A stretch of 64,000 bases of DNA from contig NZ_CP095757.1 of the NCBI RefSeq assembly GCF_023093535.1, positions 2,790,001 to 2,854,000 on the forward strand, in the 5' to 3' direction. Of the stretch, positions 17,491 through 52,885 are shown piece by piece. The DNA is from Halovivax limisalsi. Its GTDB lineage: Archaea; Halobacteriota; Halobacteria; Halobacteriales; Natrialbaceae. The number at the start of each line of letters is the position of its first letter. The first letter of the stretch is position 1. The notes beneath the pieces were generated by a model, which saw only the letters and a program-made list of their open reading frames with translations, made no database searches and was not told where the DNA came from. The position numbers and the translations under genes were made by a program.

Positions 17491-19256
17491 GGGGCCCGTC
17501 CGGACCGGATCCACCTCCGTCCGAACCGAACGTCCTCCTGATCGTCGTCGACGCCTGTCGTGCCGACGCGCTCGGGCCGTACGGCGCAAGCGTATTCGAC
17601 CGCCGGGGAGAGCCGGGATCGGACGCTTCGCATCGCCCCGCGGAAACGCCAGCGGCGGCGTCGCTCGCGGCCGGCGGGACCGTCTTCCGCCGCGCGATCT
17701 CCCCGGCTCCGTGGACGTTGCCGAGCGCGACGAGCCTGCTCACCGGGCTGGATCCCGCCGAACACGGGGCAACCTCGCTGCGCTACGAGTACGACGGCGA
17801 CCGCGGGCGCCGCCCCCTCCAGCAGGCCCTCTCTTCGGCGGGCTACCGGACGATCCACCTCTCGCCCAAAACGTGGATCGGCGACTGGCTCCCGCAGGGG
17901 TCCGGATTCGATCGCGTCGACGAGTTCACCGGGCCCGACCACCGCCGCTTCGAGGGCGGCCGAGACGTCCGCGAGCTCTCCCGGGGCGTGGCCCGCGGGC
18001 CTCGGTGGTACGCGACGGTGATCCGACGCGCGCTGGCCGCCGACGCACCGCTGCGCAGCCTCGGGAACGCCGCGGCGTTCAAACTGTCGGAGGCGACGGG
18101 GGACGCCTGGCTGGACGACGTCCGCGCGTCCGAGCGGGCGGTCCGGCTCGCCGACGAGCGATTCGCCGAGGCGGCCGCGAATCCCGACGGTCGGCCGTTC
18201 TTCATGTACGTCCACCTCATGGACCCGCACCTGCCGTTCTACGTCCCGGCGGACCACCGGACGGACGCGGTGCGCCCGCCGGGCTGTGACGACTACGCCG
18301 ACGAACGCCGGTACCTGGCGTCGCTGATGGATGATCTCTGGGCGATCCGCACCGGTGACCGACGCCTCTCGCCCGACGAGGTGACGTACCTGCGAACGCG
18401 CTACGCCGACGAGGTTCGGTACGCCGATCGCGCGGTCGGGCGGTTGCTCGACTCCCTGAACGAGCGCGGATTGTCCGACCGGACCGTGGTCGTGCTCACC
18501 GGCGACCACGGCGAACACCTCGGGGAGCGCGTCGTCGCGAGCGACTCCCGCGACGGCGCCGAGGCGACAGAACGAACCCGCGACGGGACGGAGCGGACCC
18601 TCCTCGACCATCAGGCGTCGATCCGCCTTCCCCTCTTGCGCGTCCCCCTCGTCGCGCGCTACCCGGGCGTCTTCGACGGCGGGGAGCGGACGGACCTCGT
18701 ACAACCCCACTACGTGGCGGAGACGGTCCGGGCGCTCGCCGGGCTCGAGTACGATCCGTCGCGGTCGTTGCTACCGGACGACGATCACCGGAGCGTCGCC
18801 CGGGCGTCGTACGAGGGCGTCGTGCGATCGCACCCGCCCGACGGCGTCCCGACCGAGAAGCTGTTTCGTCGGCGCCGAACCGCCGTTCTCGGCCGGTGGA
18901 AACTCGATCTCGTCGTCGGCGACCGGTCCGGACCGTCGGAGTCGACCGCGACGACCGGAACCGTCGGATCGGCCGGAACGGGCGACAGCGCTCGCTTCCG
19001 TGCGAGTCGGATCGACTGGGGCGCGAACGAGGCGGAAACCGTGCCCCTCGACGCGATCCCAGACGACGTCCGAACCCGTCTCGAGGACGCGCTCGGGACG
19101 ATCGACGCCAGCGCGACGGACGACGCGGAGTCGGCGGACGAGGGAAGCGGCGGTGACGCTGCCGTTGATCGAACCGGATCCGACGCGGGGGACGCCGACG
19201 AGCGAGATATCCCCGCCGGCGTCGAAGATCGCCTCTCCCAACTCGGGTACCGGTGA
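17487..19256 (+). CDS. Sulfatase / alkaline-phosphatase-superfamily enzyme
   Basis: 589 residues. 'NVLLIVVDACRADALGPYG' gives the first metal-binding Asp; 'MDPHLPFYVP' and 'LTGDHGEHLGE' give the others. The catalytic position reads 'PWTLPSATSLLTG', so Thr77 takes the place of the Cys or Ser that becomes formylglycine in true sulfatases (C-x-P-S-R). A Thr nucleophile occurs in phosphoglycerol and phosphoethanolamine transferases of this superfamily, so phosphoryl transfer to a glycan is possible. There is no signal peptide or membrane helix. Low-complexity acidic stretches lie near 18,540-18,600 and at the C terminus. I chose the ATG at 17487, overlapping the GT2 stop; the frame upstream of it is not coding. 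Confidence 0.85.
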   Translation: MRGPSGPDPPPSEPNVLLIVVDACRADALGPYGASVFDRRGEPGSDASHRPAETPAAASLAAGGTVFRRAISPAPWTLPSATSLLTGLDPAEHGATSLRYEYDGDRGRRPLQQALSSAGYRTIHLSPKTWIGDWLPQGSGFDRVDEFTGPDHRRFEGGRDVRELSRGVARGPRWYATVIRRALAADAPLRSLGNAAAFKLSEATGDAWLDDVRASERAVRLADERFAEAAANPDGRPFFMYVHLMDPHLPFYVPADHRTDAVRPPGCDDYADERRYLASLMDDLWAIRTGDRRLSPDEVTYLRTRYADEVRYADRAVGRLLDSLNERGLSDRTVVVLTGDHGEHLGERVVASDSRDGAEATERTRDGTERTLLDHQASIRLPLLRVPLVARYPGVFDGGERTDLVQPHYVAETVRALAGLEYDPSRSLLPDDDHRSVARASYEGVVRSHPPDGVPTEKLFRRRRTAVLGRWKLDLVVGDRSGPSESTATTGTVGSAGTGDSARFRASRIDWGANEAETVPLDAIPDDVRTRLEDALGTIDASATDDAESADEGSGGDAAVDRTGSDAGDADERDIPAGVEDRLSQLGYR

Positions 19257-20614
19257 CGATGCGTATCTGTCTGCTCTCCGACGGCTACCCGCCGTGGGAT
19301 GCCGGCGGTGCCCAGACCATCACCGCCCGGCTGGCCGAGGGGTACGTCGACAACGGGCACGACGCACACGTAATCACGACGGTCGACGACCGGGCGGACC
19401 GCGGTCGATCGATCGAGAACGGCGTCGTCGTCCATCGGGTGTGGACGCCCCGGCCGCGCTGCGTACTCCCGTACCTCACGCTACGAAATCCGCTGGTCGC
19501 CGACGCGCTTCCGGGGCTTCTCACCGACATCGCACCCGACGTCGTCCACGCGCACAACGTCCACTACCTCTCCAACGAGAGCCTCCGAATCGCGGACGAA
19601 CGCGGCCTCCCCGTCGTGAAGACGTTCCACGACGCGGGAACCGTCTCCTACGGCGAACTCACGACCGTGGCCGACCGCGCCCCTGACGGATTCGCGGACG
19701 ACGCCGACGCTCCGGCGCTCCCGGACTCGGCGTACAAAGTCTCGCCGGTCGAGCAGGCGCTCGAACAGAAGCTCCGCTACGTCCCGATTCGCAACCCTGC
19801 CAACCGTCGCTGCCTCTCCCGGTGCGTCGACGTCGGGATCGCCGTCAGCAGGGCGCTCCGACGAGGACTGGCCGTCAACGGCGTCGACTGTTCGCGGGTG
19901 ATCCACAACGGAGTCGACGCCGCACGGTTCGATCGCGAAGCGGACGTCGCGGCCCCCGCGGAGGCCGAGTTCCGCCGCCGACACGGGCTCGGCGACGGCC
20001 CGTTCGTCTGCTTCGCCGGCCGAACGAGCTACGAGAAGGGCGCGGCCCACCTCGCCGCCGCGTTCGCAGACCTCGTCGAGAACCGAGGAGCCGAAAGCGA
20101 GAACGGCCTCACGAACGCACGGCTCCTCGTGACCGGCGACGATAGCTACGTGGCGGACATGCGCCGCATCGCCGGTCCGGCCGCCGATCGCATCGTCGCG
20201 ACCGGGTGGATCCCCCGACCGGCCCTCCGAACCGCGCTGCGGTCGGCTCGCGTCGTCGCCTCGCCCGCCGTCTACCTCGATCCGTTCCCGACCGTCAACC
20301 TCGAGGCGTTCGCGGCCGGGACGCCCGTCGTGACGACGGCGTTCGGCGGCGCGTCCGAACTCGTCGACGACGGCGTCGACGGACGAATCGTCGATCCGCG
20401 CGACGTGCGGGCGCTCGCCGACGCGCTCGGGCCGATCCTCGGAGACGCCGATCGCGCGTCCGCCTGCGGGGCTAGCGGCCGCGAGAAGGTTCGCGATCGC
20501 TTCACCCTCGACGCGCAGGTCGAGGCGTACCTGGAAGTGCTCGAAGCGGTTCGTTGGGGCCAGAGACCACCCGACGAGGAGGGAACGACGCCTCCTCACG
20601 AAAGCAAGTGGTAG
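19253..20614 (+). CDS. Family 4 glycosyltransferase
   Basis: 453 residues, GT-B fold. The N-terminal domain has 'GGAQTITARLAEGY' and 'DVVHAHNVHYL'; the C-terminal domain has 'FAGRTSYEKGAAHLAAAF' and 'VYLDPFPTVNLEAFAAGTPVV', the usual donor-binding Glu motif, then 'GGASELVDDGVDG'. Likely a retaining transferase using a nucleotide sugar at the inner membrane face. The start is GTG at 19253, overlapping the previous stop (GTGA), with an ATG two codons later as alternative. It is the last gene of the operon that begins at 16241; a new TATA box follows its stop at once. Confidence 0.92.
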   Translation: MTMRICLLSDGYPPWDAGGAQTITARLAEGYVDNGHDAHVITTVDDRADRGRSIENGVVVHRVWTPRPRCVLPYLTLRNPLVADALPGLLTDIAPDVVHAHNVHYLSNESLRIADERGLPVVKTFHDAGTVSYGELTTVADRAPDGFADDADAPALPDSAYKVSPVEQALEQKLRYVPIRNPANRRCLSRCVDVGIAVSRALRRGLAVNGVDCSRVIHNGVDAARFDREADVAAPAEAEFRRRHGLGDGPFVCFAGRTSYEKGAAHLAAAFADLVENRGAESENGLTNARLLVTGDDSYVADMRRIAGPAADRIVATGWIPRPALRTALRSARVVASPAVYLDPFPTVNLEAFAAGTPVVTTAFGGASELVDDGVDGRIVDPRDVRALADALGPILGDADRASACGASGREKVRDRFTLDAQVEAYLEVLEAVRWGQRPPDEEGTTPPHESKW

Positions 20615-20615
20615 C

Positions 20616-20621
20616 TATTTA
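20616..20621 (+). promoter_or_regulatory. TATA box of the leader-ORF / ino1 transcript
   Basis: TATTTA begins one base after the preceding TAG stop and is centred 27 bases before the ATG at 20646. This is the spacing for a leaderless transcript that begins at the leader ORF, not at ino1. Confidence 0.55.
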
Positions 20622-20645
20622 CAGACGCGCGGTGTCGACGTACGC

Positions 20646-20753
20646 ATGGATTTCGTTCCGAGCCTTCGGTCGACGGAGCAAAGTCGTCGCGCATCGGCGA
20701 TCGATCCGACCGGTCGAGCGAGCGCATCCGTCGAACGGGGTGACCGGCGGTGA
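20646..20753 (+). CDS. 35-codon leaderless leader ORF (FVPS-STEQ-RR family)
   Basis: ATG at 20646, 35 codons, TGA overlapping the GTG start of ino1 (GTGA). The peptide begins MDFVPSLRSTEQSRR; a second leader at 23799 begins MAFVPSAPSTEQLRR, 11 of 15 residues identical. Codons for shared residues differ sharply (Ser6 AGC/TCA, Arg15 CGC/AGG, Arg14 CGT/CGG), which points to selection on the peptide and not on the DNA. The rest is Ala/Ser/Arg-rich and not conserved. No signal peptide or membrane helix. A role as a translation-coupled leader that regulates the downstream gene, or as a small protein in its own right, is inferred. Confidence 0.65.
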   Translation: MDFVPSLRSTEQSRRASAIDPTGRASASVERGDRR

Positions 20754-21991
20754 CCGACGTCGGCGTCTGGTTCGTCGGCGCTCGGGGGAACATCGCGACG
20801 ACGGCGATCGTCGGCGCGCTGGCCATCGCCCGGGGCGAAACGGCCACGACGGGGATGGTCACCGAGCGACCGCCCTGCGAGACGCTCGACCTGCCGGACG
20901 TCGGCGACCTGACCTTCGCCGGTCACGACATTCGGAATCGCAGCCTCCGCGACGCCGCCGAACGGCTCGAAGCCGGCGGTGGCGTTCCGTCGAACGACAC
21001 GATAGAGGCGGTCGCGGACGAACTCGAGACGATCGACGAGCGCGTGTGCCGCGGGACGGCGCTGAACTGCGGGCCCCGGGTGAGGGAACTGGCCGACGGT
21101 CCCCCGCTCGAGGCGGACCGATCGGTCGCCGAGATCGTCGAACGGCTCCGCGACGACTACGCCGCGTTTCGCGACCGCCACGATCTCGATCGGGTGATCG
21201 TCGTCAACGTCGCCTCGACCGAACCCGAGCTGTCGAACCCGAAACGCTACGCCGATCGGGCGGCGATCGAACGGGCGATCGAAGCGGACGACCGCGAGCT
21301 GCCCGCGAGTTCGCTCTACGCGTACGCCGCGCTCGCCGACGGGCACCCCTACGCGAACTTCACGCCGAGTCCCGGCAGTTCCCTCGGCGGGCTGCGTGAA
21401 CTCGCCGTCGACGAGGACGTCCCCCACACGGGCGCGGACGGGAAAACCGGCGAATCGCTCGTGAAGGCGGCGCTCGCCCCGATGTTCGCCGGGCGGAATC
21501 TGCGCGTCATGAGCTGGGAGGCCCACAACGTCCTCGGGAACACGGACGGCCACGTCCTCGAAGACGATCGGAACAAGGCCGGAAAACTGGCGAGTAAAGG
21601 GGGAATTCTCGACGGGATACTCCCGGAGATCGACCACGATCGCGTTCGAATCGACTACACGCCGTCGCTCGGCGACTGGAAGACCGCCTGGGACTACGTC
21701 CACTTCGAGGGCTTCCTGGAGACGGAGATGAAAATGCAGTTCACGTGGGAGGGCTCCGACTCGGCGCTGGCGGCGCCGCTGACGCTCGACCTCGCGCGCC
21801 TGCTCTCCCACGCCGACGAGCGGGGCGAGTCCGGCCTCCAGCGCCACCTCGCCTCGTTTTTCAAGGCCCCGGTCGACGTCGACGAGCACGACCTCTCCCG
21901 ACAGCTCGACATGCTGTCCGAGTACGTCGAGGAGCGGACGGGGGAGCGTCCCGGCGAACCGTTGCCGTCCCCTGAAGCGCGAACCGATTGA
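20750..21991 (+). CDS. ino1: myo-Inositol-1-phosphate synthase
   Basis: 413 residues. It converts glucose 6-phosphate to L-myo-inositol 1-phosphate with NAD. The Rossmann start 'VGVWFVGARGNIATTAIVGA' is followed by 'NVASTEPEL', 'YAALADGHPYANFTPSPG' and the core 'DGKTGESLVKAALAPMFAGRNLRVMSWEAHNVLGN', shown here only in part as evidence: 'GADGKTGESLVKAALAP'. The second half has 'GFLETEMKMQFTWEGSDS'. The product could feed archaetidylinositol lipids or inositol-containing glycans or solutes; the island setting favours a surface role. The start is GTG at 20750, overlapped by the leader ORF, with GGCGG just upstream. Confidence 0.93.
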   Translation: MTDVGVWFVGARGNIATTAIVGALAIARGETATTGMVTERPPCETLDLPDVGDLTFAGHDIRNRSLRDAAERLEAGGGVPSNDTIEAVADELETIDERVCRGTALNCGPRVRELADGPPLEADRSVAEIVERLRDDYAAFRDRHDLDRVIVVNVASTEPELSNPKRYADRAAIERAIEADDRELPASSLYAYAALADGHPYANFTPSPGSSLGGLRELAVDEDVPHTGADGKTGESLVKAALAPMFAGRNLRVMSWEAHNVLGNTDGHVLEDDRNKAGKLASKGGILDGILPEIDHDRVRIDYTPSLGDWKTAWDYVHFEGFLETEMKMQFTWEGSDSALAAPLTLDLARLLSHADERGESGLQRHLASFFKAPVDVDEHDLSRQLDMLSEYVEERTGERPGEPLPSPEARTD

Positions 21992-22051
21992 CGGTGGTTC
22001 CGACGGGCGGCGGGAACGGGCGGTCGTATCGTCGGTTCGTTCGTCCTCCCG

Positions 22052-23524
22052 CTAGTGCACCGCCCGGACCGGTTCGTCGGCGCCGAGGAAGCCGCGAGCG
22101 GCGAGCGCGGCCGCGACGACGGTCCTCCGAGCGCGCCGGTCCTGGGCCAGCAGGAGCGTCAGGTACGTGGCGACGCCCAGAGCGCTAACGAGCGCGACTT
22201 CACCCGGCCCGGGGGCGGAGCCGAGCCGGGTGAGTCCGGCCACGACGGCGGCCATCCCCGCGGCGCTTCGAAACTGGATCCGGAGCGGGTCGGGGAATCG
22301 AGGGACGGTCGCACCGTTCCGGCGGAGCGCCCTGTGGAGGCGATCCCAGCGGAGCGACTCCGCGGCGATCGTCGCCGCGATCACGCCGATCGGACCGACG
22401 GTCAGGACGAGGGGGACCCCGAGCGCGAAATTGACGGCGACGGTCACCGCCGAGATTCTGAAGGCGGTGTCCGGTCGCCCCATCCCCTTGACGGCGCTGT
22501 CGAGGGGTTCTCGCTGGGTCTGGAGGATCCGATAGACGGCGATCCCCCCGAGCAAGGGGACGGTCGCCGCGTACGCCGAGCCGTAGATCGCCTCGACGAC
22601 GGCGTCGCCGAGGAAGACGACGATCACGAGCAGCGGGATCGCGATCGCGCTCGTGTAGGAGATCGCGGCCGTGACGGTCTCGCCGATCGCGAGATCCCTG
22701 CTCGACAGATCGCTAACTTTGCTGATGAGCCCGTCCATCACGACGCCCGAGACGAGCGTCGCCAGTCCCGTCACCGAGAGGGCGACCTCGTAGAAGCCGA
22801 CCGACGCCGTCAATCCGACCCACCCGAGAAGGAAGACGTCGAACCGGGTGTAGGCCTTCCCGACGATGTTCGTGGGGACGTTGTACCTCGCGTACTCCCA
22901 GACGCGGACCGCCGTTGCCCGGGTCGGGACCGCAGGTCGAAGTCCGAGGAGCCAGAAGAGGACGGGCAGGAAACACAGGGTTGCGACGACGAATCCCGCG
23001 GTCATCCCCGTCACGCCGAAGCCGAGGACGACGAGTCCGAACTGGAGGACGGTCTTCAGCACCTCCCGACCCAGGTCGATCCAGTGGGTGACGCCGAACC
23101 GTCCCGTTCCCGCGAGCAGGAACTGGAGCGGGAGGAACGTCGACATCGAGACGAAGAGCGCGACGGCGAGGACGGGCGCGTTCGGGATCCCGGTGTACGC
23201 GATCAGGAGGTCGCGACCGACGAACGCGAGGGTCGCGGCGACGGTCCCGCAGGCGACGGTCGCGCCGAGGGTCAGCCCGAGGAGCTCCTCGTTCGACGTG
23301 TCCACCTCCGCGAGGCGCTTCTGGCACGCCCCGCCCAGGCCGTGCGGGACGCGGTTCGCGAACTGGACGACCGAGAGCAGGAGGAAGAAGCCCCCGAACA
23401 CCGCTGGACCGAGCTCGCGGGCGAAGTACGCGGTGGCCGCGAAGCCGAACAGGTACATCGCCAGCCTCGCAGCTACCCCTTTGAGCGTTTCGCGGCCGAA
23501 CGAAACGTCGTCTGGCGTGGTCAT
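22052..23524 (-). CDS. Polysaccharide flippase (Wzx/MOP superfamily)
   Basis: 490 residues with about 12-14 hydrophobic helices along the whole length. 'GFAATAYFARELGPAVFGGFFLLLSVV' near the N terminus is the typical opening of Wzx/RfbX-type flippases, and 'VGKAYTRFDVFLLGWVGLTASVGFYEVALSV' is the matching central segment (shown partly: 'RFDVFLLGWVGL'). It would move a lipid-linked glycan across the membrane. I start at ATG 23524 (MTTPDDVSFG), which places the first helix normally; a GTG 29 codons upstream is possible but adds a non-conserved extension. It is flanked by divergent and convergent glycan genes. Confidence 0.9.
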   Translation of the reverse strand: MTTPDDVSFGRETLKGVAARLAMYLFGFAATAYFARELGPAVFGGFFLLLSVVQFANRVPHGLGGACQKRLAEVDTSNEELLGLTLGATVACGTVAATLAFVGRDLLIAYTGIPNAPVLAVALFVSMSTFLPLQFLLAGTGRFGVTHWIDLGREVLKTVLQFGLVVLGFGVTGMTAGFVVATLCFLPVLFWLLGLRPAVPTRATAVRVWEYARYNVPTNIVGKAYTRFDVFLLGWVGLTASVGFYEVALSVTGLATLVSGVVMDGLISKVSDLSSRDLAIGETVTAAISYTSAIAIPLLVIVVFLGDAVVEAIYGSAYAATVPLLGGIAVYRILQTQREPLDSAVKGMGRPDTAFRISAVTVAVNFALGVPLVLTVGPIGVIAATIAAESLRWDRLHRALRRNGATVPRFPDPLRIQFRSAAGMAAVVAGLTRLGSAPGPGEVALVSALGVATYLTLLLAQDRRARRTVVAAALAARGFLGADEPVRAVH

Positions 23525-23769
23525 TATCGCCTCGTTGCCCGGAGCCAACGATCCGCTACTCCGGGACAGCGGTTGATTACCGTCGACGAATCGGTGCGCG
23601 GCACACCCCACCTCGGGGGATGCCCGTTGAGAACTTTCCGGTCACCGTCGGCCGTGCGAGTCGGTCACGTTCCGACGTTAGACAGGTAATTCGGCGTTAC
23701 CCATCACGCGTCCGACGGAACGGGTTCTGAGCGACGAGTTCGTTCAGGAACGGAGAGGGGCGTGACAGC
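23525..23769. other. Intergenic region before the second leader ORF
   Basis: The 372 bases between the flippase and the next glycosyltransferase hold a TATA box and a leader ORF at the right end (listed separately). The left 245 bases show no gene, clear repeat or RNA structure; they should hold the divergent flippase promoter, but no strong TATA box stands out. Confidence 0.45.
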
Positions 23770-23774
23770 TATAA
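23770..23774 (+). promoter_or_regulatory. TATA box of the leader-ORF / GT4 transcript
   Basis: TATAA is centred 27 bases before the ATG at 23799, the same spacing as for the leader at 20646. It implies a leaderless mRNA whose first codon is that of the leader ORF. Confidence 0.6.
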
Positions 23775-23798
23775 GCGATCGAACGGCGTGGAGTGGCC

Positions 23799-23900
23799 AT
23801 GGCGTTCGTTCCGTCAGCTCCGTCGACGGAGCAACTGCGGAGGGAGGAGACGAACGGGGCCGGGACGGAGTTCGACGACGGACGGGTTTCGTTCCCATGA
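23799..23900 (+). CDS. 33-codon leaderless leader ORF (FVPS-STEQ-RR family)
   Basis: ATG at 23799, 33 codons, ending in TGA inside the ATGA that starts the glycosyltransferase at 23897. It begins MAFVPSAPSTEQLRR, matching the leader before ino1 at 11 of 15 positions, while the C-terminal halves differ (acidic here, Ser/Arg-rich there). Shared residues use different codons, so the similarity is at peptide level. The small size, exact TATA spacing and overlap with the next start suggest a translated leader or small protein. No domain recognised. Confidence 0.65.
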   Translation: MAFVPSAPSTEQLRREETNGAGTEFDDGRVSFP

Positions 23901-25312
23901 GAATCCTGCTCGCCGCCCACGCCCTCCCGCCGGCTACCCGCGGGGGAACCGAACTGTACACCGTCCGCCTCGCCGAAAAATTCGCCGCCCGAGGACACGC
24001 CGTGACCGTCGCCGCACCGCGAGGTGCGGACGCCACCGTCGAGGGGGCCACCGTCGTCGAACTCCCGGACGCCGCCCCTCGACCCGAAGACGGCGTCGGC
24101 CTCTCCCGCGCCGCGGGCGTCGAGCAACCCGAAATCGACGACGCCGTCTCGACCCTGTTCGACGAGGGCAGTTCGACGGCGGATATCGTCCACCTCCAGC
24201 ACTTCAAAGGACTATCGTCGGGAATTCCGTCCCTGTGCGCCGACCGCGGCGTCCCGTGCATCGCGACGCTCCACGATTTCTGGACGCTCTGCCACCGCGA
24301 GCAACTCAGGAAACCCGACGGCACGCCGTGTTCCGGTCCGACGTCGATCGCCAAGTGCGCGGAGTGCTACGCGGACGCGGTCGCGCGGTTCGCGGCCGAA
24401 TCGTCGGACGGGACCGACGCGGAGCGGATCCGCCCCGGCCTCGAGTCCGGTTTCGCCGATGCCGTGGCGCGCCGAACGCGCGGCCTCCGCCGAGCGCTCG
24501 GCGACTGCGACCGCCTCGTGTCGCCGTCCCGGTATCTGCGGGACGTCTTCGTCGACTTCGGATTCGATTCGGCTCGAATCGTGCATCGACGGAACGGAAT
24601 CCGAACCGACGAGTTTCGCGGCTCGACGTTCGATGCCGACACGCCGCTCCAGATCGGGTACGCCGGCCGAATCGCCGAGTCGAAGGGAGTCCACCTGCTC
24701 GTGGAAGCGCTTGATCACATCTCGGCGGACGTCGACCTCCACGTCCACGGCAGCTTCTCCCCCGACGAGGAGCCGTACCACGCGAGCCTTCGGGACGCCG
24801 CGAGGCGAATCGAGGGGAGCGCGGAGCGGGATCGGATTCGGTTCCACGGCAGCTATCCCGATGCGCCCGCCGTCTTCGACGCGCTCGACGTCTTCGTCCT
24901 GCCCTCGATCTGGGTCGAGAACAGCCCGCTGGTGATCCAGGAGGCATTCGCCGCCGGCGTCCCCGTCGTCACCGGCGATCGCGGCGGGATGGCTGAACTC
25001 GTTACCCACGGCGACGACGGCCTCACCGTCCCCGTAGGCGACGTCGACGCGCTCGCCGAGGCGCTCGAGCGCCTCGCCGTCGATCCCGAACTCGTCCGGC
25101 GGCTCAGGGCCGGCGTCGAACCGCCGACAGAGCTGGACGACCACGCGACCGAACTGCTGGCGCTCTACCGCGAGCAGCTTAGAGCGGACGGGAGCGACGA
25201 GTCCGGCGGACGACCCGAAGGGCGAAACGAATCCGGCGGGAGGCAGTCCGCCGGAGCCGACGCGGCGGAGGAAAGCGAGAACCCGTACGGGACGAACCGG
25301 GATGACCCATGA
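23897..25312 (+). CDS. Family 4 glycosyltransferase with Cys-rich insert
   Basis: 471 residues, GT-B fold. 'MRILLAAHALPPATRGGTELYT' opens the N-terminal domain (shown in part: 'ATRGGTELYTVRLAEKFA'). 'LHDFWTLCHREQL' with later 'CSGP' and 'CAECYAD' is a Cys-bearing insert seen in a subgroup of GT4 enzymes. The donor domain has 'GYAGRIAESKGVHLLVEAL' and 'SIWVENSPLVIQEAFAAG'. The C-terminal 45 residues are a Gly/Glu/Arg-rich, probably disordered tail. The ATG at 23897 is chosen because the GT-B fold begins there and it overlaps the leader ORF stop. It overlaps the next gene by 4 bases. Confidence 0.92.
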   Translation: MRILLAAHALPPATRGGTELYTVRLAEKFAARGHAVTVAAPRGADATVEGATVVELPDAAPRPEDGVGLSRAAGVEQPEIDDAVSTLFDEGSSTADIVHLQHFKGLSSGIPSLCADRGVPCIATLHDFWTLCHREQLRKPDGTPCSGPTSIAKCAECYADAVARFAAESSDGTDAERIRPGLESGFADAVARRTRGLRRALGDCDRLVSPSRYLRDVFVDFGFDSARIVHRRNGIRTDEFRGSTFDADTPLQIGYAGRIAESKGVHLLVEALDHISADVDLHVHGSFSPDEEPYHASLRDAARRIEGSAERDRIRFHGSYPDAPAVFDALDVFVLPSIWVENSPLVIQEAFAAGVPVVTGDRGGMAELVTHGDDGLTVPVGDVDALAEALERLAVDPELVRRLRAGVEPPTELDDHATELLALYREQLRADGSDESGGRPEGRNESGGRQSAGADAAEESENPYGTNRDDP

Positions 25313-26619
25313 GCTCGATCCTCATTCTCACCCGCGAACTCCCGTACCCGCCGAACGCGGGAGACCGCATCGTGACGCACGGCTACGTTCGGGGCCTCGC
25401 AGAGCGCGGTCACGAGGTGCACGTTCTGACCTACAGGTCGGGCGAGTCGCTCGCGGACGTGGCCGAGCTTCGCGAGCACTGCGAGTCCGTTGTCCGCATT
25501 CCCGGAACATCGTCTCCGCTCCCCCCGGCGGCGAGAACGCTCGCCAAGGCGGCGCGCGGACGGTCGGACGTGATGGCCATGTTCGACTCGTCCACATTTC
25601 GCGAGGCGACGGCCCGCCGCGTCGCGGCCGTCGAACCGGACGCCGTCCTCGCCCAGCACCCCTACATCGGGCAGGTCTTTCGGGAGCGGTCGGTCCGCGA
25701 CGCCGCGCGAGACGTCGGCGCGCAGCTGGTGACGAACGCGCACGTGTTAGAGTACGCGGCCCACGAGCGCCGCCGGGAGTTCGCCGACGACCTCCGGACG
25801 CGAGCCGAACTGGCCCTGGAGGTCCCGCGCCTCCGACGCGCGGAACTGGCCGCCTACCGGGCGTCGGACCTGACCATCGTTCTGGGAGCGGAAGACGAGC
25901 GGCGCCTGCGGAGCCGCGGCGTCGGCCCGGTCTCGCGCCAGCGGGTCGGTCTCCCGGTCGACTCGTACGAGCCGGCACCCCTGCCGCCCGGACCGGCGCC
26001 CGCAGGTAACGGCGGGGTCGTCGAAGACCGGCACGACCCAGGTGCGGACGCTCGACGCAGTTCGAGCCACCGAGGGAAGTCCGCCCGAGGGTCGGATCCC
26101 GATCGCCTCCTCTTCTTCGGCTCGTACGACTGGTTCCCGAACGAGGACGCGGCGCTCGTCCTCGGCCGGCGGATCTTCCCCCGGATTCGAAACGCACGTC
26201 CCGAAGCGGAACTCGAACTCGCCGGTCGCGGCGCGAACGACCGGATCGAGTCTCTCGGCGATCGCCCCGGTATTACCTTCCGCGGCGAGGTCGCGAATCT
26301 CGAATCGGTCGTCCGCAGCGCGGACGTCGTAGTCGCACCGCTCCGCGTCGGCGGCGGCGTCCGCATCAAGGTCCTCGAGTCGATGGCCTGGCGCCTCCCG
26401 GTCGTAACGACCGAAGCCGGGTTCGAGGGCGTGGCGGCCTCGCCGGGTGAGGACCTCCTCGTCGCCGGCGACGCGGACCAGTTCGTCGACGCGACGGTCT
26501 CGCTCCTGCGGAACGCCGACGAGCGCCGTCGCGTCGCCGCGAACGCTCGCGGGACGATCGCGGAGCGATACTCGATCGACCGAGTCGCGCCCGAAGTCGA
26601 GACCGCACTGGGCGTCTAA
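25309..26619 (+). CDS. Family 4 glycosyltransferase (Stp1-like)
   Basis: 436 residues. 'YPPNAGDRIVTHGYVRGLAERGH' at the start, 'LLFFGSYDWFPNEDAALVL' in the middle and 'APLRVGGGVRIKVLESMAWR' near the end resemble the sugar transferases tied to exopolysaccharide systems, where the last motif contacts the nucleotide sugar. A Gly/Pro/Asp/Arg-rich insert (about residues 222-260) separates the domains. The ATG overlaps the previous stop (ATGA), so the two transferases form one operon under the leader-ORF promoter. Sugar and acceptor are unknown. Confidence 0.9.
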   Translation: MSSILILTRELPYPPNAGDRIVTHGYVRGLAERGHEVHVLTYRSGESLADVAELREHCESVVRIPGTSSPLPPAARTLAKAARGRSDVMAMFDSSTFREATARRVAAVEPDAVLAQHPYIGQVFRERSVRDAARDVGAQLVTNAHVLEYAAHERRREFADDLRTRAELALEVPRLRRAELAAYRASDLTIVLGAEDERRLRSRGVGPVSRQRVGLPVDSYEPAPLPPGPAPAGNGGVVEDRHDPGADARRSSSHRGKSARGSDPDRLLFFGSYDWFPNEDAALVLGRRIFPRIRNARPEAELELAGRGANDRIESLGDRPGITFRGEVANLESVVRSADVVVAPLRVGGGVRIKVLESMAWRLPVVTTEAGFEGVAASPGEDLLVAGDADQFVDATVSLLRNADERRRVAANARGTIAERYSIDRVAPEVETALGV

Positions 26620-38969: not shown

Positions 38970-40436
38970 TCACTCCTTGCCGAACATCTGGCGCATCATC
39001 GGGTGCATCTCCATCATCTGCTCTTCGGCGATCTCCTCGTAGAGCTTGTAGGTGATGGAGACCGCAAGCAGCAGGCCCGTCCCGGTGACGCCGCCGATGG
39101 TGCCGAGCATGTTCGCCCAGACCGCAAGCAGGCCGACGAGCGCGCCGCCGATGACGGTCACCTGCGGGATGTAGCGCTCCATGACCTTCTCGACGACGCC
39201 GACGTTCTGGCGGAAGCCGGGGATCTGCATCCCGGAGTTCTGGATCTGCTCGGCCGTCGAGTCCGGCCCCATGCCGGTCGTTTCCACCCAGAAGACGGCG
39301 AAGATGGCGCCGCCGAGGACCATGAACGTCAGGTCGACGCTCAGCCGGATCAGCACCTGCCAGGTCTCCTGCGTGACGCCCGGGTCCCACCACATCCAGT
39401 CTTCCGGCCGGTAGATCGGCGCCGTGTAGTAGAAGAAGCCGCTGACCGGCTGGCCGTTGCTGCCGTACTGGCCCAGCCAGGTCGGCAGCCAACCCTGACT
39501 GTTGAGGATCTGGCCCAGGAACTGGATGTTCGCCTGCAGCGCGCGAACGAGGATCATCGGCAGGACGCTCGCGTAGATGAGCTTGACCGGGAACCGACCG
39601 CGGGCGCCTTTCACCCGCGAGTGACTCAGCGGAATCTCGACGCGGACCGACTCCGCGTAGACGACGATCGCGAAGATGAGCACCGTCGTCAGTAACGCGA
39701 TGATCTGTCCTTCGGTCACCAGCAACGAGTACAGTCCGTCGCTGGTGGCGAGCGAGCCGATATCGGACTGGCCGGTGACGATCTGATACCAGCTGTAGAA
39801 GAACCCGTCGGGATTCAACGCGAGGAAGCCGGCGACCAGCCGCTGGCTGACCCCCGCGATGATGAAGAGGCCGACCCCGCTGCCGACGCCCCAGTTCGAG
39901 ACGACCTCGTCCATGTAGAGGATGAGGATCCCCCCGACGAAGATCTGTAAGAACATGATGACCTGGACGCCGGTCGACCCGAAGGTCATCCCGCCCAGCT
40001 GGAGCTGCGACACTGCCGGAAGGAAGCCACCTTGCCCGCCCGCGAACACCATCGGCGCCGCCGTCAGCGCCGTCATTACGATGACGAGCAGCTTCTGGAG
40101 GCCCTGGTAGAGGACCTGATCGCGCGGGTCGTCCGTGTCCAGCCCGAGCAGGTTCGCCCCGCCGAGCAGTTGCAAGACGATGCTCGCCGTGACGATCGGG
40201 CCGATCCCGACCTGCAATATCGAGCCCTGCTGGCCGGCCAGGATCGCGCGGAACTGGCCGAAGAGGTCCTCTCCGCCCTGGGCCGACCCCAGGATGGCGA
40301 TGTTCGTCAGGAAGAAATACAGTACCAGGATCGCCCCCGTCCACATGAGCTTGCGCTTGAAGGGAACGTGTCCCTCCGGTCTGCGGACCGAGGGCATTCG
40401 CGTCAGCACCGGTTCGGCGACTTCCTTCCAGCCCAT
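38970..40436 (-). CDS. secY: Protein translocase subunit SecY
   Basis: 488 residues, ten predicted helices. It forms the membrane pore for protein export and insertion. 'FKRKLMWTGAILVLYFFLTNI' starts helix 1; 'LGGANLLGLDTDDPRDQVLYQG' and 'IGPIVTASIVLQLLGG' are typical SecY segments; 'GYIPQVTVIGGALVGLLAV' type sequence ('RYIPQVTVIGGALVGLLAV') is near the C terminus. It directly follows uL15, as in the archaeal spc operon, and is the last gene of the cluster here. Adenylate kinase, next in many Euryarchaeota, is instead 33 kb away. Confidence 0.97.
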   Translation of the reverse strand: MGWKEVAEPVLTRMPSVRRPEGHVPFKRKLMWTGAILVLYFFLTNIAILGSAQGGEDLFGQFRAILAGQQGSILQVGIGPIVTASIVLQLLGGANLLGLDTDDPRDQVLYQGLQKLLVIVMTALTAAPMVFAGGQGGFLPAVSQLQLGGMTFGSTGVQVIMFLQIFVGGILILYMDEVVSNWGVGSGVGLFIIAGVSQRLVAGFLALNPDGFFYSWYQIVTGQSDIGSLATSDGLYSLLVTEGQIIALLTTVLIFAIVVYAESVRVEIPLSHSRVKGARGRFPVKLIYASVLPMILVRALQANIQFLGQILNSQGWLPTWLGQYGSNGQPVSGFFYYTAPIYRPEDWMWWDPGVTQETWQVLIRLSVDLTFMVLGGAIFAVFWVETTGMGPDSTAEQIQNSGMQIPGFRQNVGVVEKVMERYIPQVTVIGGALVGLLAVWANMLGTIGGVTGTGLLLAVSITYKLYEEIAEEQMMEMHPMMRQMFGKE

Positions 40437-40439
40437 ATA

Positions 40440-40928
40440 TTAGTCCTCTGTCTCCTCGTCTTCGTCCGGTTCGGCAGCGAGTTCTTCGCCGCGCTCGGAC
40501 AGGACGGCTGCCCCGCCGGCCGCTTCGAGCTTCTCGCTCGCGCCGTCGGAGAACGCGTCCGCGGTGACCTCGAGCGCCTCGTAGACCTGTCCCGAACCCA
40601 GGACCTTCACGACGTCGACCTCGTGGCCGTCCTCGACGACGTCTCGCGCGTCGATGGCGTAGCCGTCCTCGGTCTCCTCGGCCAGGCCGTCGTCGACGAG
40701 CAACGGGACGTCCTCGTCGAGTTCGCGAACGTCGACCTCCGCGACGGTCGGCTGTGCGTCCTGGGGCCGTTTGAAGCCGTGTTTGTGCTTCGGTTCGTAG
40801 TTGTGGAACTCGTGCTTTGATCGCCCTGCACGGCCGCGTCCGCCGCGGTTGCCGGCCCCACGCCGGTTCTTGTGCGTCCCGCCGCCGTGGGTTCGCGAGC
40901 CGCGCTGGCGTCGTTTTTTACTCGTCAT
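40440..40928 (-). CDS. rpl15: Ribosomal protein uL15
   Basis: 162 residues. 'MTSKKRRQRGSRTHGGGTHK' and the Gly/Arg-rich 'NRRGAGNRGGRGRAGRSKHE' are the basic N-terminal extension that enters the large-subunit rRNA core; the C-terminal domain is acidic. 'KGxGxG'-type turns are changed as in other haloarchaea. It lies between uL30 and SecY, its canonical place. Confidence 0.96.
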   Translation of the reverse strand: MTSKKRRQRGSRTHGGGTHKNRRGAGNRGGRGRAGRSKHEFHNYEPKHKHGFKRPQDAQPTVAEVDVRELDEDVPLLVDDGLAEETEDGYAIDARDVVEDGHEVDVVKVLGSGQVYEALEVTADAFSDGASEKLEAAGGAAVLSERGEELAAEPDEDEETED

Positions 40929-40930
40929 GG

Positions 40931-41398
40931 TTAGCGCATCGATTCTAGCAGGTCGTTAATCTGCTCCGTTGTATGCTTTCCGAGTTGGCCACCCTCTCCC
41001 GTCGGCTTCTTGATACCGGCGTGCCCGCCCCGCGGCGGGTGCAGGCGAAGCGTCGGCGAGAGTCCCTCCTCGCGAAGCGTCGTTTCCTCCTGAATCAGCG
41101 CCTCGGCGAGCGCCTCGAAGTCGTCGTAGTCGGTGTGGTCGGCGAGCCAGGCCTCGTCGACGTCGGCCTGGCGCCCCGCTTCGGGCTCGCTCCGGTTCTC
41201 GAGGATCCGCGCGAGCACCTCCGCGCTCGGCTCGCCGTAGGCCACGTAGTCGTGGACCTTCGTGAGCATGCCGCGGTAGGCGTCCGTGTCCGGAACGAGC
41301 GTCGCGTGATTCACCTCGGGCACGTTGAGCATCGAGAGCGTATCGTCGACCGCGTCGGAGCGATCGACCGTGCCGCGCAACTGGACGACGGCCTTCAT
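40931..41398 (-). CDS. rpl30: Ribosomal protein uL30
   Basis: 155 residues, the long archaeal form. '[21 protein letters not shown]' (in part: '[20 protein letters not shown]') and the C-terminal '[14 protein letters not shown]' are characteristic. The ATG at 41398 overlaps the uS5 stop by 4 bases; longer frames upstream run through uS5 in another phase and are not coding. Confidence 0.95.
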
Positions 41399-42045
41399 CG
41401 CTCGGCCACCTCGACGTCGGCGCTGGCCGGACCGGCCTGCATCCGCGACTGCGAGGCGTTCTCGAGCGCGTTGAACGTCGCCTTCGCGAGGTTGACCGTC
41501 GTCCGGGTGTTGCCGTGACTCTTCGTCCAGGCGTTCTCGATCCCGGCGAGTTCGAGCACCGCGCGAACGGTGTCGCTCGCCGCGAGCCCGAGCCCTTCCG
41601 GTGCCGGGATCAGTTCGACTTCGACCGAGCCGGCCTTCCCGTTCGTTCGGTGGGTCAGCGAGTGGGGCCGATCGGAGCGATCCTCCCACGAGCCCGAGCC
41701 GCGGGGCACTTCGATCATGTTGAGCTTCGCGATGCCGATCGCCTTCTGGATCGCGGAGCCGACCTGGTCGTCGCGGCCCTCGGCGTAGCCGACGAAGCCG
41801 TTCTGGTCGCCGACGACGACCACGCAGCGGAACTTCACGCGCCGCCCCGAGTCGGTCATCCGCTGGACCATGTTGATGTCGAGCACCTCGTCGGACAGCC
41901 CCGGGAGGAGTTGGTCGACGATTTCGGGCTCCTTCAGCGGGAGCCCGGAGTTCAGCGCCGCCGACATCGAGTCGATCTCGCCGTCCTGTACCATCCGTCC
42001 GAGTCGCGTGACGGGTTCCCACCCGTCGTCGTAGCCGTTACTCAT
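41395..42045 (-). CDS. rps5: Ribosomal protein uS5
   Basis: 216 residues. '[17 protein letters not shown]' and '[20 protein letters not shown]' carry the double-stranded-RNA-binding S5 domain; 'GSGSWE' follows. It takes part in small-subunit decoding fidelity. The start ATG at 42045 ([10 protein letters not shown]) matches archaeal S5; the start overlaps the end of uL18. Confidence 0.96.
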
Positions 42046-42589
42046 TGCTGATCGCCTCACGTACCTCGTCGAAGTGCGCCGGCAGCGCCGTCGCGTCGAA
42101 GTCGCCGCTGTAGAGCGAGTCCTCGAGCGACTCGGCGTACTCGGCGATGTGCTCGCCGCGCGTTCGCGACCAGTCCGCGAGGACGCTGTCGTTGTGCGGG
42201 ATGTCCAGGCCAGCGTCGATCGCGCCCTCCTGGACCGCGAACACCTTGTTCCCCGGCGTCGCCGTGTGCAGGCCGAGGTCGAGGACCGCCTCCTCGAGGC
42301 CGGCCTCGACGGCGCGGGTGCCGGCCAGCAGGCCGGTCAGGTAGGCCGCGGGGAGGTTGCTCGTCGGCGCCTCCCAGCCGTACTCGGCGAGGTCGCCCGA
42401 GTGTGCGCTCGCGTGTGTCTCGTCGCCCTGGGGGCCCGGAGTGATCAGCTGCGCCCTGACGTGGGCGTTCGACGTCCGCGCCACGAGGCGCGGCTTGCCC
42501 GATTTCAGCAGGCGCAACCGCTGATGGTAGTCCGTCCGGACCTCCCGGCGACGTCGCATCGGTACCTTATATCGTGGTCCTGTTGCCAT
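42038..42589 (-). CDS. rpl18: Ribosomal protein uL18
   Basis: 183 residues. '[21 protein letters not shown]' (in part: '[20 protein letters not shown]') and '[19 protein letters not shown]' are archaeal L18 signatures. It binds 5S rRNA. Its ATG overlaps the stop of eL19 by one base (TAATG on the coding strand), and its end overlaps uS5. Confidence 0.96.
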
Positions 42590-43038
42590 TATGCGTCACC
42601 GTACTCGTTTTCGATGAAGGTCAGCATGTAGCGGACGCTGCGGAACTCGCCCCCACCGGCCTTCCGGTAGAGTTCGCGGTACTCGGTCGGCGTGAGCTCG
42701 CCCGAGTCGCGCAGTTCGCGCAGCTTCCGTCGCTGAGCCCGAATCTGATTTCGCCACTGTTCTCGCTCGTCCTGGCGGGCGCCCGCCTTGCCGCGTCGCT
42801 TGCCCTGGCCCTTCCGATGGCCGTACGCGCGCTTTTCGTTGCGCTCGCGGGCGCGACCGCGGGAGTTGCCGCGGGCGTCCTCGGCGCGGATCGTGCCCTC
42901 GTCGACGAGTTCGCGGATCTCCTCGCGCGTGATCGCCTGAGCGATCTCGCCCTGGGCGTCGGGGTCGAACCAGATGCGGTTCTTGCCGACGTCGAGGACG
43001 TCCGCCGCGAGGCGTTTCTGCGCGCTCAGGTCCGTCAT
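42589..43038 (-). CDS. rpl19e: Ribosomal protein eL19
   Basis: 149 residues. '[23 protein letters not shown]' start (in part: '[18 protein letters not shown]') and the basic '[15 protein letters not shown]' helix-loop are typical of the archaeal/eukaryotic protein. Compact gene packing: it overlaps eL32 by 4 bases and touches uL18. Confidence 0.96.
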
Positions 43039-43820
43039 TCGTCCACCTCCACTTCGACGTAGGTCGGGTTGAGAACGCGAATGCCCGCGTCCTCGGCCTG
43101 CTCCTCGATGCGCTCGCGCTTGCGAGCCCCGACGGAGCCGGCGATGCGGACGGCCTCGGTGTCGCCGTCGACGCCCTCGAGGTCGTCCGTGTTCTCGACG
43201 TAGACCTCCTCGAAGCCGCTCGGGTGCTTGCCCCGGACGGCCGTCGGCGTCCGGTAGCCCGACTCGACTTTGTCGCCTTTGCCCTTCACGCCGCGGCGCT
43301 GCTTCGAGAGCCCGCCGCGCGGTCGACGCCAGGATTCCGGCGTGCGCTTTTTCTTGTGGTAGTCCTGGCGCTTGAACTGCGGTTTGCCCTCGTGGCGACG
43401 TCGGGTCAGGAGTTCGGCCTCCTCGTCGGAGAGTTCCGGCTCCTTCTCCGTCAGCCCGCGGGGTTGGAGTTCGGTCTCGACGTCCTCGGCCTCGGCCGGT
43501 TCCTCGGCTTCGGGTTCGGCCTCGTCCTCGATCTCGGCCTCGGTCTCCGCTTCGACCTCGAGATCGCCGACGTCGGCCTTGATGCGTGCGGCCAGCGCCA
43601 TGCCGATTCCCTCGACGTCGGCCAGGTCGTCCTGGGACGCCTCGCGAACGTCGTCGACGGCGCCGTAGCCGGCCTCGCGGAGCGCGTCGGCCTTGCTCTC
43701 GCCGACGCCGCTGATGTCTTCGAGGGTCTCGGGACCGGTGTCAGTCTCGGTGCCGGCCGGTTCGTCCGCGTCTTCGGATTCGGCCAGTTCGTCTGCGTTT
43801 TCGGGTTCGTCGTCTGCCAT
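43035..43820 (-). CDS. rpl32e: Ribosomal protein eL32 with N-terminal HhH extension
   Basis: 261 residues, about twice the core length of eL32. The eL32 core occupies the C-terminal 130 residues ('[20 protein letters not shown]', '[14 protein letters not shown]', '[15 protein letters not shown]'). Before it come an acidic lead, a helix-hairpin-helix pair ('[20 protein letters not shown]' and '[19 protein letters not shown]') and a Glu/Ala-rich linker. HhH-extended eL32 is known in haloarchaea; the extension may bind rRNA or DNA. Confidence 0.95.
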
Positions 43821-43822
43821 CG

Positions 43823-44359
43823 TCAGGCACCTCCTTTCTGCGGTTTGGCGGTGATGTAGACGCCGTCCTGGAAGACGCGGGTGTCCTTGCCGCTGACCTG
43901 CGTCAGCTGCTCGATGTCCGCGGCCGTCTGGCCGACGTGTTCCTTGTTGGGCCCGGAGAGCGTGATGGCCTCGCCATCGACGCTCACCCGAGTATCACCG
44001 TGGATCGTCGTGCGTCGCGGTGCCTTCTCGCCGAGGAAGTTCTCGATGACGACCTCGTCGCCCTCGACGGTGACCTGCATGGGGAAGTGCGAGTAGAAGA
44101 CCTCCATCTCGTACTCCCAGCCCTCGGTCACGCCGTGGAAGGCGTTGCGGACGTGGCTCTCGAACGTGCCGACGGTCGCGTTCGTCTTCGCGTCGTCGGC
44201 GTCGCTCTCGATGACCACCTGGTCGCCATCCGTCTCGACGGTGACGTCGGGGTACCAGAGGCGACGGCTGACCGTCCCCTCGGGACCCTCGACCGTCACG
44301 TCGAGGTGGTCGACCTCGACGGTTACGTCGTCGGGTATGGTGAGTGTTGTTCGTGCCAT
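43823..44359 (-). CDS. rpl6: Ribosomal protein uL6
   Basis: 178 residues with two L6 domains. '[22 protein letters not shown]' (in part: '[19 protein letters not shown]') and '[20 protein letters not shown]' are the conserved signatures. It binds 23S rRNA near the factor-binding site. Spacing to uS8 is 4 bases. Confidence 0.96.
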
Positions 44360-44363
44360 TGTG

Positions 44364-44756
44364 CTAGTATACGTACGCGATCACCTGACCCCCGATACCG
44401 CGCTCGCGCGCCTCGTAGTGGCTCATGATGCCCTCGCTCGTCGTGACGACGAGCGCGCCGAAGTCCCGAGCGGGGAGAAAGCGCTTCTCCCACTTCTCGA
44501 ACTCGTCGGCGCCGGCGCTGTAGCGTGGCTTGACGGGGCCGCACTCGTTGATCGCTCCGTTCAATTCGACCTCGAACTGACCGCCCTTGCCGTCGTCGAC
44601 GTGCGCGAAGCCGTCGATGTACCCGTGGTCGTAGAAGACCTCGAGCACCTGGCCGATCACGTTCGAGGCGGGCCTGACGTCGTGACTCAGGTGACCGACG
44701 CTCTCGGCGTTGTCGATGCCCGAGAGCGCGTTACTGAGCGGATCGTTTCCTGTCAT
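44364..44756 (-). CDS. rps8: Ribosomal protein uS8
   Basis: 130 residues. '[19 protein letters not shown]' and the C-terminal '[19 protein letters not shown]' are the S8 hallmarks; it binds the central domain of 16S rRNA. The ATG at 44756 overlaps the uS14 stop by 4 bases (ATGA). The longer upstream frame is uS14 read in another phase. Confidence 0.96.
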
Positions 44757-44929
44757 CGGTACTTCTTGAATCCCATACTGCGAGCGATATCCCGGAAGCA
44801 CTGTCGGCAGAGGTTGATGTCGTACTTGCCGACGAGGCCCTGCTTACGTCCGCACCGCTGGCAGGCCTCCCGCTGGCCGGTGCGCTTTGTGGCGTGCTCG
44901 CCCGTCTGTTCGGTTTCACTCTCACTCAT
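44753..44929 (-). CDS. rps14: Ribosomal protein uS14 (zinc type)
   Basis: 58 residues, a small gene that is easily missed. It ends '...[21 protein letters not shown]' (in part: '[18 protein letters not shown]'), the universal S14 C terminus. Cys23, Cys26, Cys41 and Cys44 form a C-x2-C / C-x2-C zinc site. The first 20 residues are a haloarchaeal acidic/Thr-rich extension. It lies between uL5 and uS8 as in all archaeal spc operons and overlaps both neighbours. Confidence 0.96.
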
Positions 44930-45455
44930 CGTCTACCTCCACGTCGAAGGTCGCCTCGAGGAACGAAATCGCGTCCTCGGGGGTCAGTCGGTGGTTCGAC
45001 GGAATCGATCGGCTGGCCTGGTCGCGCTTGGCGACGCGGTAGCCCGGACGGACCAGGTTGACGGTCACGTCGAGGCCGTAGATTCCGATGTTCGGATCGT
45101 ACTCCTGACCGGGGAAGTCCGTGTGCTCGGCGACGCCGAAGCTGAAGTTCCCCGTCTCGTCGAACTGACTCGCCGACAGGTCGGCGATCGCCAGCGCTGT
45201 CTCGAGGAAGTCGGTGGCGGCCTCGCCGCGCAGCGTGACCTTCGTCCCGATCGGTTCGCCCTGGCGGATCCCGAAGTCGGGCTCCGTCCCGGACGCGAGC
45301 GTGCGAACGCTCTCCTGACCGGTGACGTCCTCGATGATATCCTCGGCGTCCGCGAGCTCGCGACCGCCCTGCCCGACGCCCATGTGCACGACGACCTTCT
45401 CGACGCGCGGTTCGCGCATCGCGTGAAAGTCGGCCGCGGATTCGGCGTCGCTCAT
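44922..45455 (-). CDS. rpl5: Ribosomal protein uL5
   Basis: 177 residues. '[20 protein letters not shown]' and '[20 protein letters not shown]' with '[19 protein letters not shown]' are L5 signatures. It anchors 5S rRNA in the central protuberance. Overlaps uS14 by 8 bases and eS4 by 4. Confidence 0.96.
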
Positions 45456-46333
45456 TCGTCCTCACCTCCGTCCGCCTCGTCGGCCGAGGCGTCCTCGGTA
45501 TCGTCGTCGGAGACGTCCTCGGTCTCGGCAGTCTCGCCGGATTCGGCGTCGGCCGCTTCGGTTCCGGTATCGTCATCCTCGGAGCCGGTATCGACGGTCG
45601 CCTCGTCCGACGCGCTCGCTGCATCGTCGTCGACGAAGTTCTCGTCGATGACGACGACGTACTCCTCGACGGTCTCGAACGGGTCGTCCGCCGCGGCTTC
45701 CGCGGCCGGTTCGACGTGGACGATGTTGGAGCCGCTGCCGGCCGTGACCTCGATCTCGGCGATCCGGCCGACCTTGCCCGCGTGATTCCCGCGGACGGCC
45801 GTCACGAGCGCACCCTCCTCGTAGGGGAAGTGCGCGACGATCTCCTTGTCCTCGTTGTCGACGACGATCGAGTCGGTCGCGCCGTAGGTCGCCTCGTCGT
45901 CGACGGTGACGTTGGTACCGTCGTGCAACGAGAGCTGAGTCACTCCGCCGGTGACCTGGCGCTTGCCCTCGACCTTTCCGAGGCGGCTCTCGGCCGCCTC
46001 GGCGTCGATCGCGGTCAGCGCGAGCCGACCGCCCTCGTCGGGGAAGACGCGGTAGTACTCGTCACGATCGGGGAACGCGACGATGTCGAACATCCCGATC
46101 GGGCGTTCCTCGTCGTTGATCGCGTCGCCGTTGACGATCACCGCGTCGTTCGAGAGCGCGTAGCGCGCCTCCTTGCGGTTGTCGACGTACGCGAGGACGT
46201 CCCGCAGCAGGATGAGCAGCGGAACGCCGTCTTCGCCGTGCGGTCCGGCCCCGGCCTTCACCGTGAAGGTGTCGGTCTTTCGCTCGACCGGCCAGGAGTT
46301 CGGTACCGAGAGTCGTTTCTGGTGCTTGCTCAT
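45452..46333 (-). CDS. rps4e: Ribosomal protein eS4 with long acidic tail
   Basis: 293 residues; the family core is about 235. '[20 protein letters not shown]', an S4 RNA-binding segment ('[20 protein letters not shown]') and a KOW motif ('[17 protein letters not shown]') make up the core. The last 58 or so residues are almost only Asp, Glu, Ser, Ala and Thr, a disordered halophilic tail seen as the repetitive GA-rich DNA at about 45,455-45,630. Confidence 0.95.
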
Positions 46334-46686: not shown

Positions 46687-46690
46687 GGTT

Positions 46691-48029: not shown

Positions 48030-48031
48030 GG

Positions 48032-49700: not shown

Positions 49701-49707
49701 GCGTGGA

Positions 49708-50849: not shown

Positions 50850-50851
50850 CG

Positions 50852-51855: not shown

Positions 51856-51858
51856 AGA

Positions 51859-52881: not shown

Positions 52882-52885
52882 CGTA

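Follow-up and report, generated by a model that had tools for sequence, protein, structure and literature searches.

What do two short open reading frames (ORFs) with similar N termini do in front of two cell-surface genes of a haloarchaeon? We addressed this question in a 64,000-nucleotide (nt) stretch of the Halovivax limisalsi genome (hereafter, the window), where one ORF (leader 1) ends on the start codon of ino1, the gene for myo-inositol-1-phosphate synthase, and the other (leader 2) on that of a glycosyltransferase gene, GT4b. An earlier note had taken the two for a family of small proteins or leader peptides. Our analysis supports, with moderate confidence, a different reading, in which the two ORFs are translationally coupled leader cistrons sharing a nucleic-acid element, and in which an ino1-GT4b-GT4c operon was split and its detached half received a second copy of the leader segment.

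The anatomy of the locus (Table 1) agreed with the description in the earlier note. ORFs of 35 and 33 codons were present, each preceded by a TATA-like box at close to the 27 nt typical of leaderless transcripts (27 nt for leader 1 and 26 nt for leader 2), and each ending in a stop codon that overlaps the next start by four bases (GTGA into ino1 and ATGA into GT4b). TATA boxes were called throughout by eye and with simple scoring. No TATA-like sequence was found immediately 5' of the ino1 GTG (best score 4/8), and the context of this start, GTGACCGACGTCGGCGTCTGG, was the same in the window and in one related genome, G433. Coupled ORFs like leader 1 arose in 2 to 3% of shuffled segments of equal composition, and those like leader 2 with a P of 0.011. 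Thus, neither arrangement is likely to have arisen by chance. The proposal that these are first cistrons heading cell-surface genes also stood, as the anatomy is best read as that of leaderless-type leaders coupled by a 4-base overlap, and as ino1 of other haloarchaea is likewise preceded by coupled leaders. The probable role of both ORFs is to deliver ribosomes, by translational coupling, to the gene that follows.

The likeness between the two leaders is not due to chance. Aligned in register from their ATGs, they were identical at 31 of 45 bases. In 49,455 pairwise comparisons of gene starts anchored on ATG, taken from 464 kb of this genome, a single pair reached that value. The window itself offers 325 pairs of ATGs with a TATA box before them, and among these only the leader pair did so. 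Two motif matches in one window were found in none of 100 shuffled windows. The best gapped alignment, with two 2-nt gaps, showed identity at 31 of 34 aligned bases and delimited a shared block, outside of which identity fell to 10/40 upstream and to 3/9 and then 13/57 downstream. When the halves of the block were searched singly in the host genome, no further copies with zero mismatches were found; the remaining matches had one or two mismatches.

We then asked whether this likeness resides in the peptide. The match at 11 of the first 15 residues was confirmed. The earlier note had held that identical residues use divergent codons, which would favor selection on the peptide. However, 7 of the 10 identical residues other than methionine use the same codon (TTC GTT CCG and TCG ACG GAG CAA); the Ser6 mismatch (AGC versus TCA) vanishes in the best gapped alignment, where the two gaps pair AGC with AGC two bases on; and Arg14 and Arg15 lie outside the homologous block. 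The ratio of nonsynonymous to synonymous differences per site (pN/pS) between the copies was near 1 (0.87, from 15 codons only), with base changes spread evenly over the three codon positions (4, 5, and 5), so that purifying selection on the residues was not apparent. The isoelectric points of the two peptides are also far apart (11.2 for leader 1 and 4.4 for leader 2), and their net charge differs.

Homologous leaders were not found either. The core pattern occurs twice in the 3.89-Mb host genome, both times in the leaders themselves; it was absent from 60 relatives, and in 84,980 GTDB species genomes it gave 12 matches, all bacterial and at chance level. Relaxed peptide searches of 125 genomes of the family and 382 of the order returned nothing convincing beyond chance matches. 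In the order search, one full core match was obtained, in G018; it lies mid-frame in an 825-codon ORF and was rejected as a leader. Among the first 60 relatives the best GT4b match had 38% identity, and thus none was close enough for a substitution-rate (dN/dS) test of leader 2; true orthologs came from the family of genome G395 (see below). The leader peptides of related ino1 clusters were quite different (MYGKIALDRGYSANDRPSGGGGST, MHGRSSYELGHRASSRGSDGGEAR, and MTVGWGTMKLDQ). Judged by these comparisons, the two leaders do not form a conserved peptide family.

The shared block consists of an element, TCSGYCGACGGAGYAA, together with a 15-nt flank, and the STEQ residues of the leaders are encoded by this element as TCG ACG GAG CAA. 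Related sites were found at the ino1 promoters of four genomes (G395, G433, G451, and G454) of one haloarchaeal family other than that of the window. The site in G395, TCCGTCGACGGAGTAA, matches the second half of the block at 15 of 16 positions and fits TCSGYCGACGGAGYAA exactly, as does TCCGCCGACGGAGTAA in G433 and G451; in G454, ACCGCCGACGGAGGAA lies 3' of a TATA-like box and matches at 14 of 16. In background stretches of 260 nt, a 14/16 match occurred in 0.07% and a 15/16 match in 0 of 1,500. Spacing was constant in G395, G433, and G451, with 128 nt from the site to the ino1 start codon and 14 nt from the start of a TTTAT box to the site. In a comparison of G395 with G433, the element agrees at 15 of 16 positions, whereas the flanks beyond the TATA region match poorly (13/40, 3/20, and 14/40). 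At these orthologous promoters, the element is thus better conserved than its surroundings. No FVPS..STEQ reading frame encloses any of the four related sites, which argues that the STEQ residues result from translation of a nucleic-acid element. As far as sequence comparison can tell, the likeness of the leaders is largely that of such an element and not of a peptide, and the proposed small-protein family, with no homologs beyond chance, is not upheld.

Exact copies of TCSGYCGACGGAGYAA are few: 391 haloarchaeal genomes (on the order of 1.4 Gb by our estimate) held 10 sites, comprising the two in the window, the one at the G395 ino1 promoter, and seven with no apparent connection to promoters of this kind. 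The element itself is partly palindromic (TCCGTCGACGGA), and copy 2 together with the two preceding bases forms a perfect 16-base pair (bp) palindrome, GCTCCGTCGACGGAGC (23817-23832), an arrangement that would suit a dimeric DNA-binding protein. In being GC-rich, partly palindromic, and close to haloarchaeal gene starts, it resembles the RosR motif TCGnCGACGAGnTCGnCGAC (PMC4287449) and, by description only, the TrmB motifs (PMC10817205). As a RosR site, however, it was rejected: compared by eye with the published consensus, TCSGYCGACGGAGYAA has one extra base between the CGAC and AG parts and lacks the second half.

Related sequence was also noted at leaders of other genomes. In G454 (L125/L159), a TATA box and ACCGCCGACGGAGGAA are followed by a leaderless-type ORF of ~68 codons that ends in the GTGA start of ino1, and a second CGACGGAGCA is found after an ATG ~120 nt further on. 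A second leader type (family f6; L065, L072-L075), with the peptide MQRRxSEPIGKQGSExQ..., begins with ATGCAGCGACGGA, a sequence that includes CGACGGA, the core of the window element. This leader is fairly conserved within a genus, with a pN/pS of 0.48 as compared to 1.1-2.9 in the other frames.

Predicted coupling to ino1 extends beyond the window. In all four related clusters, the stop of an ORF overlaps the ino1 start (GTGA or ATGA), with a different peptide in each lineage. Outside this cluster, ino1 of several lineages also has a TATA-led coupled leader, as in the window's own family (MTRRERATAA..., MLRTERTKRES..., MTDHSRPLS..., and MSEHAQ...) and in another family (MQRRTSEPIGKQ...), while in some other lineages ino1 is directly leaderless. 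The coupled state requires 5 changes on the ino1 tree, as compared to 10.4 in shuffles. Within clades, the leaders remain open and keep the overlap. Their peptide constraint ranges from none, with a pN/pS of 1.15 in one genus where ino1 itself has 0.18 and where frame and overlap are kept, to moderate, with values of 0.41-0.64. In G279 (L082), indels have shifted the leader frame relative to L083 (offset +8 instead of +1), and the overlap of the stop with the ino1 start was retained. Frames and overlaps kept while the peptide is free to change, including the frame change in G279, fit selection for ribosome delivery rather than for the product.

In several genera of the window's family, a CATAAC(A/G)AA box is followed 31-34 nt on by the ATG of a 30- to 42-codon ORF, the stop of which overlaps the ino1 start (L058, L060-L064, and L066, all of one genus; L008/L068; L009; and L011/L076/L077/L081-L083/L087). 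In the window genome itself the coupled-leader arrangement is rare, at most ~2% of genes and in part chance: a strict TATA rule found TATA-led coupled leaders at 6 of 333 genes, versus 1-4 with a shifted TATA window, in a scan whose start-codon limit missed leader 2. On the minus strand of the window, at reverse-complement positions 52514-52603, another TATA-led short ORF, MSGFVVRIRSGGSAASIDGRLAEDPDGGSQ, runs into the next gene with a 4-base overlap.

How did two genes of one window come to carry the same block? The window ino1 groups with that of G395 (support 93/96), and all four related genomes share with the window a nine-gene cluster with the gene order GT2, sulfatase, GT4a, ino1, GT4b, and GT4c, followed by a divergent MocA-type oxidoreductase gene and GT4d, at identities of about 48-71%. 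In each of the four, GT4b directly follows ino1, in G395 and G454 with a gap of a few bases. The window alone has a reverse-strand flippase gene between them, for which tblastn found no homolog in the 19 kb of the related clusters (L156-L159). The simplest history would be that one promoter originally served ino1-GT4b-GT4c, that the operon was split in the window's lineage so that the flippase gene now separates ino1 from GT4b, and that the 5' part (~37 nt) of the ino1 leader, which includes the element, was copied to a position before GT4b. Such copying, the putative origin of copy 2, would have equipped the detached half with the same element and with a new ORF upstream that replaces ino1 as its coupling partner.

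Several observations weigh against this history or against the role given to the element. Copying is deduced from 37 nt, and the DNA around the window copies is mostly unalike, promoters included. Plain copying gives no reason for the homologous block to start, as it does, no more than one base from the ATG. The polarity, a flippase gain here versus a loss elsewhere, rests on one genome versus four of one family. In addition, the element differs in position: in the related clusters it stands between TATA box and start site, and in the window 20 nt 3' of the leader ATG, so that its mode of action may differ or be at the RNA level. Last, the matching residues at positions 6, 14, and 15 are encoded by different codons, which leaves small residual support for selection on the peptide.

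These residues, together with the overall match of the N termini, the open reading frames, and the correct coupling, are what a leader-peptide family would have in its favor, its conserved N terminus sensing the translation state or a sugar and thereby controlling cell-surface operons. The failure to find homologs in GTDB or, at relaxed stringency, in relatives, the pN/pS value, the unlike leader peptides of the related ino1 clusters, and the coincidence of the shared residues with the element and its flank render such a family improbable. A coincidental likeness of two unrelated short ORFs is barely credible: although equally high gapped local scores occurred in 12 of 20,000 random pairs of gene starts when register was ignored, such likeness is far rarer once both ATGs are kept in register, and orthologous promoters carry the element as well.

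The block could also be a regulatory site that both promoters gained independently as members of one regulon, with no copying between them. This would fit the better palindrome of copy 2, the unalike promoter DNA 5' of the two copies, and the retention of the element alone, at fixed spacing to TATA, at the ino1 promoters of the four other genomes. The window copies, however, also have in common ATGGnnTTCGTTCCG, which the related genomes lack, and for 31 identical bases out of 34 shared ancestry is simpler; we consider independent gain unlikely. If the block instead acted in the RNA and not as a DNA site, it might do so through a 5'-end hairpin, transcript stability, or the loading of ribosomes. 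In favor of this, it lies within the first 36 nt of the putative transcript in the window, and copy 2 is able to form a 6-bp hairpin. But folding of the 5' ends was no better than that of shuffles (z of -1.2 and -1.1), Rfam covariance models gave no match, and related genomes have the element mostly 5' of the expected start site, which makes an RNA element quite improbable.

Under the reading that we prefer, coupled leaders with a shared element, transcription would begin at or near the leader ATG, 26-27 nt past the TATA box, and the ribosome would initiate on this ATG without a 5' untranslated region (UTR), terminate at the overlapping UGA, and reinitiate on GT4b or on ino1, the GTG start of which is weak. 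The leader peptide itself would be a by-product, and the element a candidate binding site for a regulator or an RNA element.

This working has precedents. In Haloferax volcanii, in which leaderless molecules account for 72% of coding transcripts (Babski et al. 2016, PMC4983044), reporter tests showed strict coupling at overlapping stop and start codons (Huber et al. 2019, PMC6728339) and its loss at a stop-start distance of ~20 nt (Huber et al. 2023, PMC10666635). The window resembles this termination-reinitiation system in its 4-base overlap, in a downstream gene without its own promoter signal, and in its haloarchaeal host; the H. volcanii pairs, however, are ordinary genes, whereas the upstream partner here is a putatively coupled leader of 33-35 codons without conserved sequence. 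Like the window leaders, the upstream ORFs (uORFs) of H. volcanii (PMC4983044) are small (15-31 amino acids) and lie between start site and main gene, and one of them precedes a glycan flippase gene. They were chosen by coding potential and low isoelectric point, in contrast to the basic leader 1, and lie in long 5' UTRs, whereas both window leaders begin at the putative start site. Short leaderless uORFs that deliver the ribosome to a coupled gene have been proposed for mycobacteria (reviewed in PMC12548453); the host here is instead archaeal, and the leader also holds a DNA element. We found no paper on haloarchaeal ino1 with glycosyltransferases.

Table 1. Features of the ino1-GT4b locus (positions in the window)
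Feature	Position	Strand	Remarks
GT4a glycosyltransferase gene	19253-20614	+	5' of ino1 promoter; syntenic in related clusters
TATA-like box TATTTA of ino1 transcript	20616-20621	+	Centre 27 nt 5' of leader 1 ATG, with which the putative start site coincides
Shared block, copy 1, CATGGATTTCGTTCCG--AGCCTTCGGTCGACGGAGCAA	20645-20681	+	Gapped alignment with leader 2
Leader ORF 1, MDFVPSLRSTEQSRRASAIDPTGRASASVERGDRR	20646-20753	+	35 amino acids; TGA stop overlaps ino1 start
Element, copy 1, TCGGTCGACGGAGCAA	20666-20681	+	Encodes STEQ residues
GTGA	20750-20753	+	Leader 1 stop and ino1 start
ino1, myo-inositol-1-phosphate synthase	20750-21991	+	PF07994, PF01658
Polysaccharide flippase gene	22052-23611	-	PF13440; between ino1 and GT4b; missing from four related clusters
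TATA-like box TATAAG of GT4b transcript	23770-23775	+	Centre 26 nt 5' of leader 2 ATG
Shared block, copy 2, CATGGCGTTCGTTCCGTCAGC--TCCGTCGACGGAGCAA	23798-23834	+	Gapped alignment with leader 1
Leader ORF 2, MAFVPSAPSTEQLRREETNGAGTEFDDGRVSFP	23799-23900	+	33 amino acids; TGA stop overlaps GT4b start
Element, copy 2, TCCGTCGACGGAGCAA	23819-23834	+	
ATGA	23897-23900	+	Leader 2 stop and GT4b start
GT4b glycosyltransferase gene	23897-25312	+	PF13692, PF00534; directly 3' of ino1 in four related clusters
GT4c glycosyltransferase gene	25309-26619	+	4-base overlap with GT4b; next gene of putative ancestral operon

Two other observations were made in the window and its relatives. Positions 40001-54000 have a strongly negative AT skew (-0.16 to -0.35) over ~14 kb, unlike the remaining window. 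Genome G288 has a second ino1 in three overlapping, seemingly frameshifted pieces (contig C12:438675-439820) and an intact ino1 on contig C2.

The wider proposal, that haloarchaeal ino1 is controlled via a coupled leaderless leader ORF kept for its position and that a split operon is co-regulated through a copied leader segment, is possible but doubtful, and we put it forward tentatively. To our knowledge, leaderless leader ORFs as ribosome loaders have been proposed for bacteria and hardly tested in archaea; such a role there is suggested by the coupled ino1 leaders of several haloarchaeal lineages, the peptides of which are free to vary. The locus would also provide a concrete case of operon repair after a split, by means of the same element, a new promoter, and a new coupling partner. 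What seem to be conserved peptides may be a translated DNA element, and in GC-rich genomes this can mislead the search for small proteins. If the proposal is true, haloarchaea would have a counterpart of bacterial leader-ORF control, exerted over the supply of inositol and cell-surface glycans.

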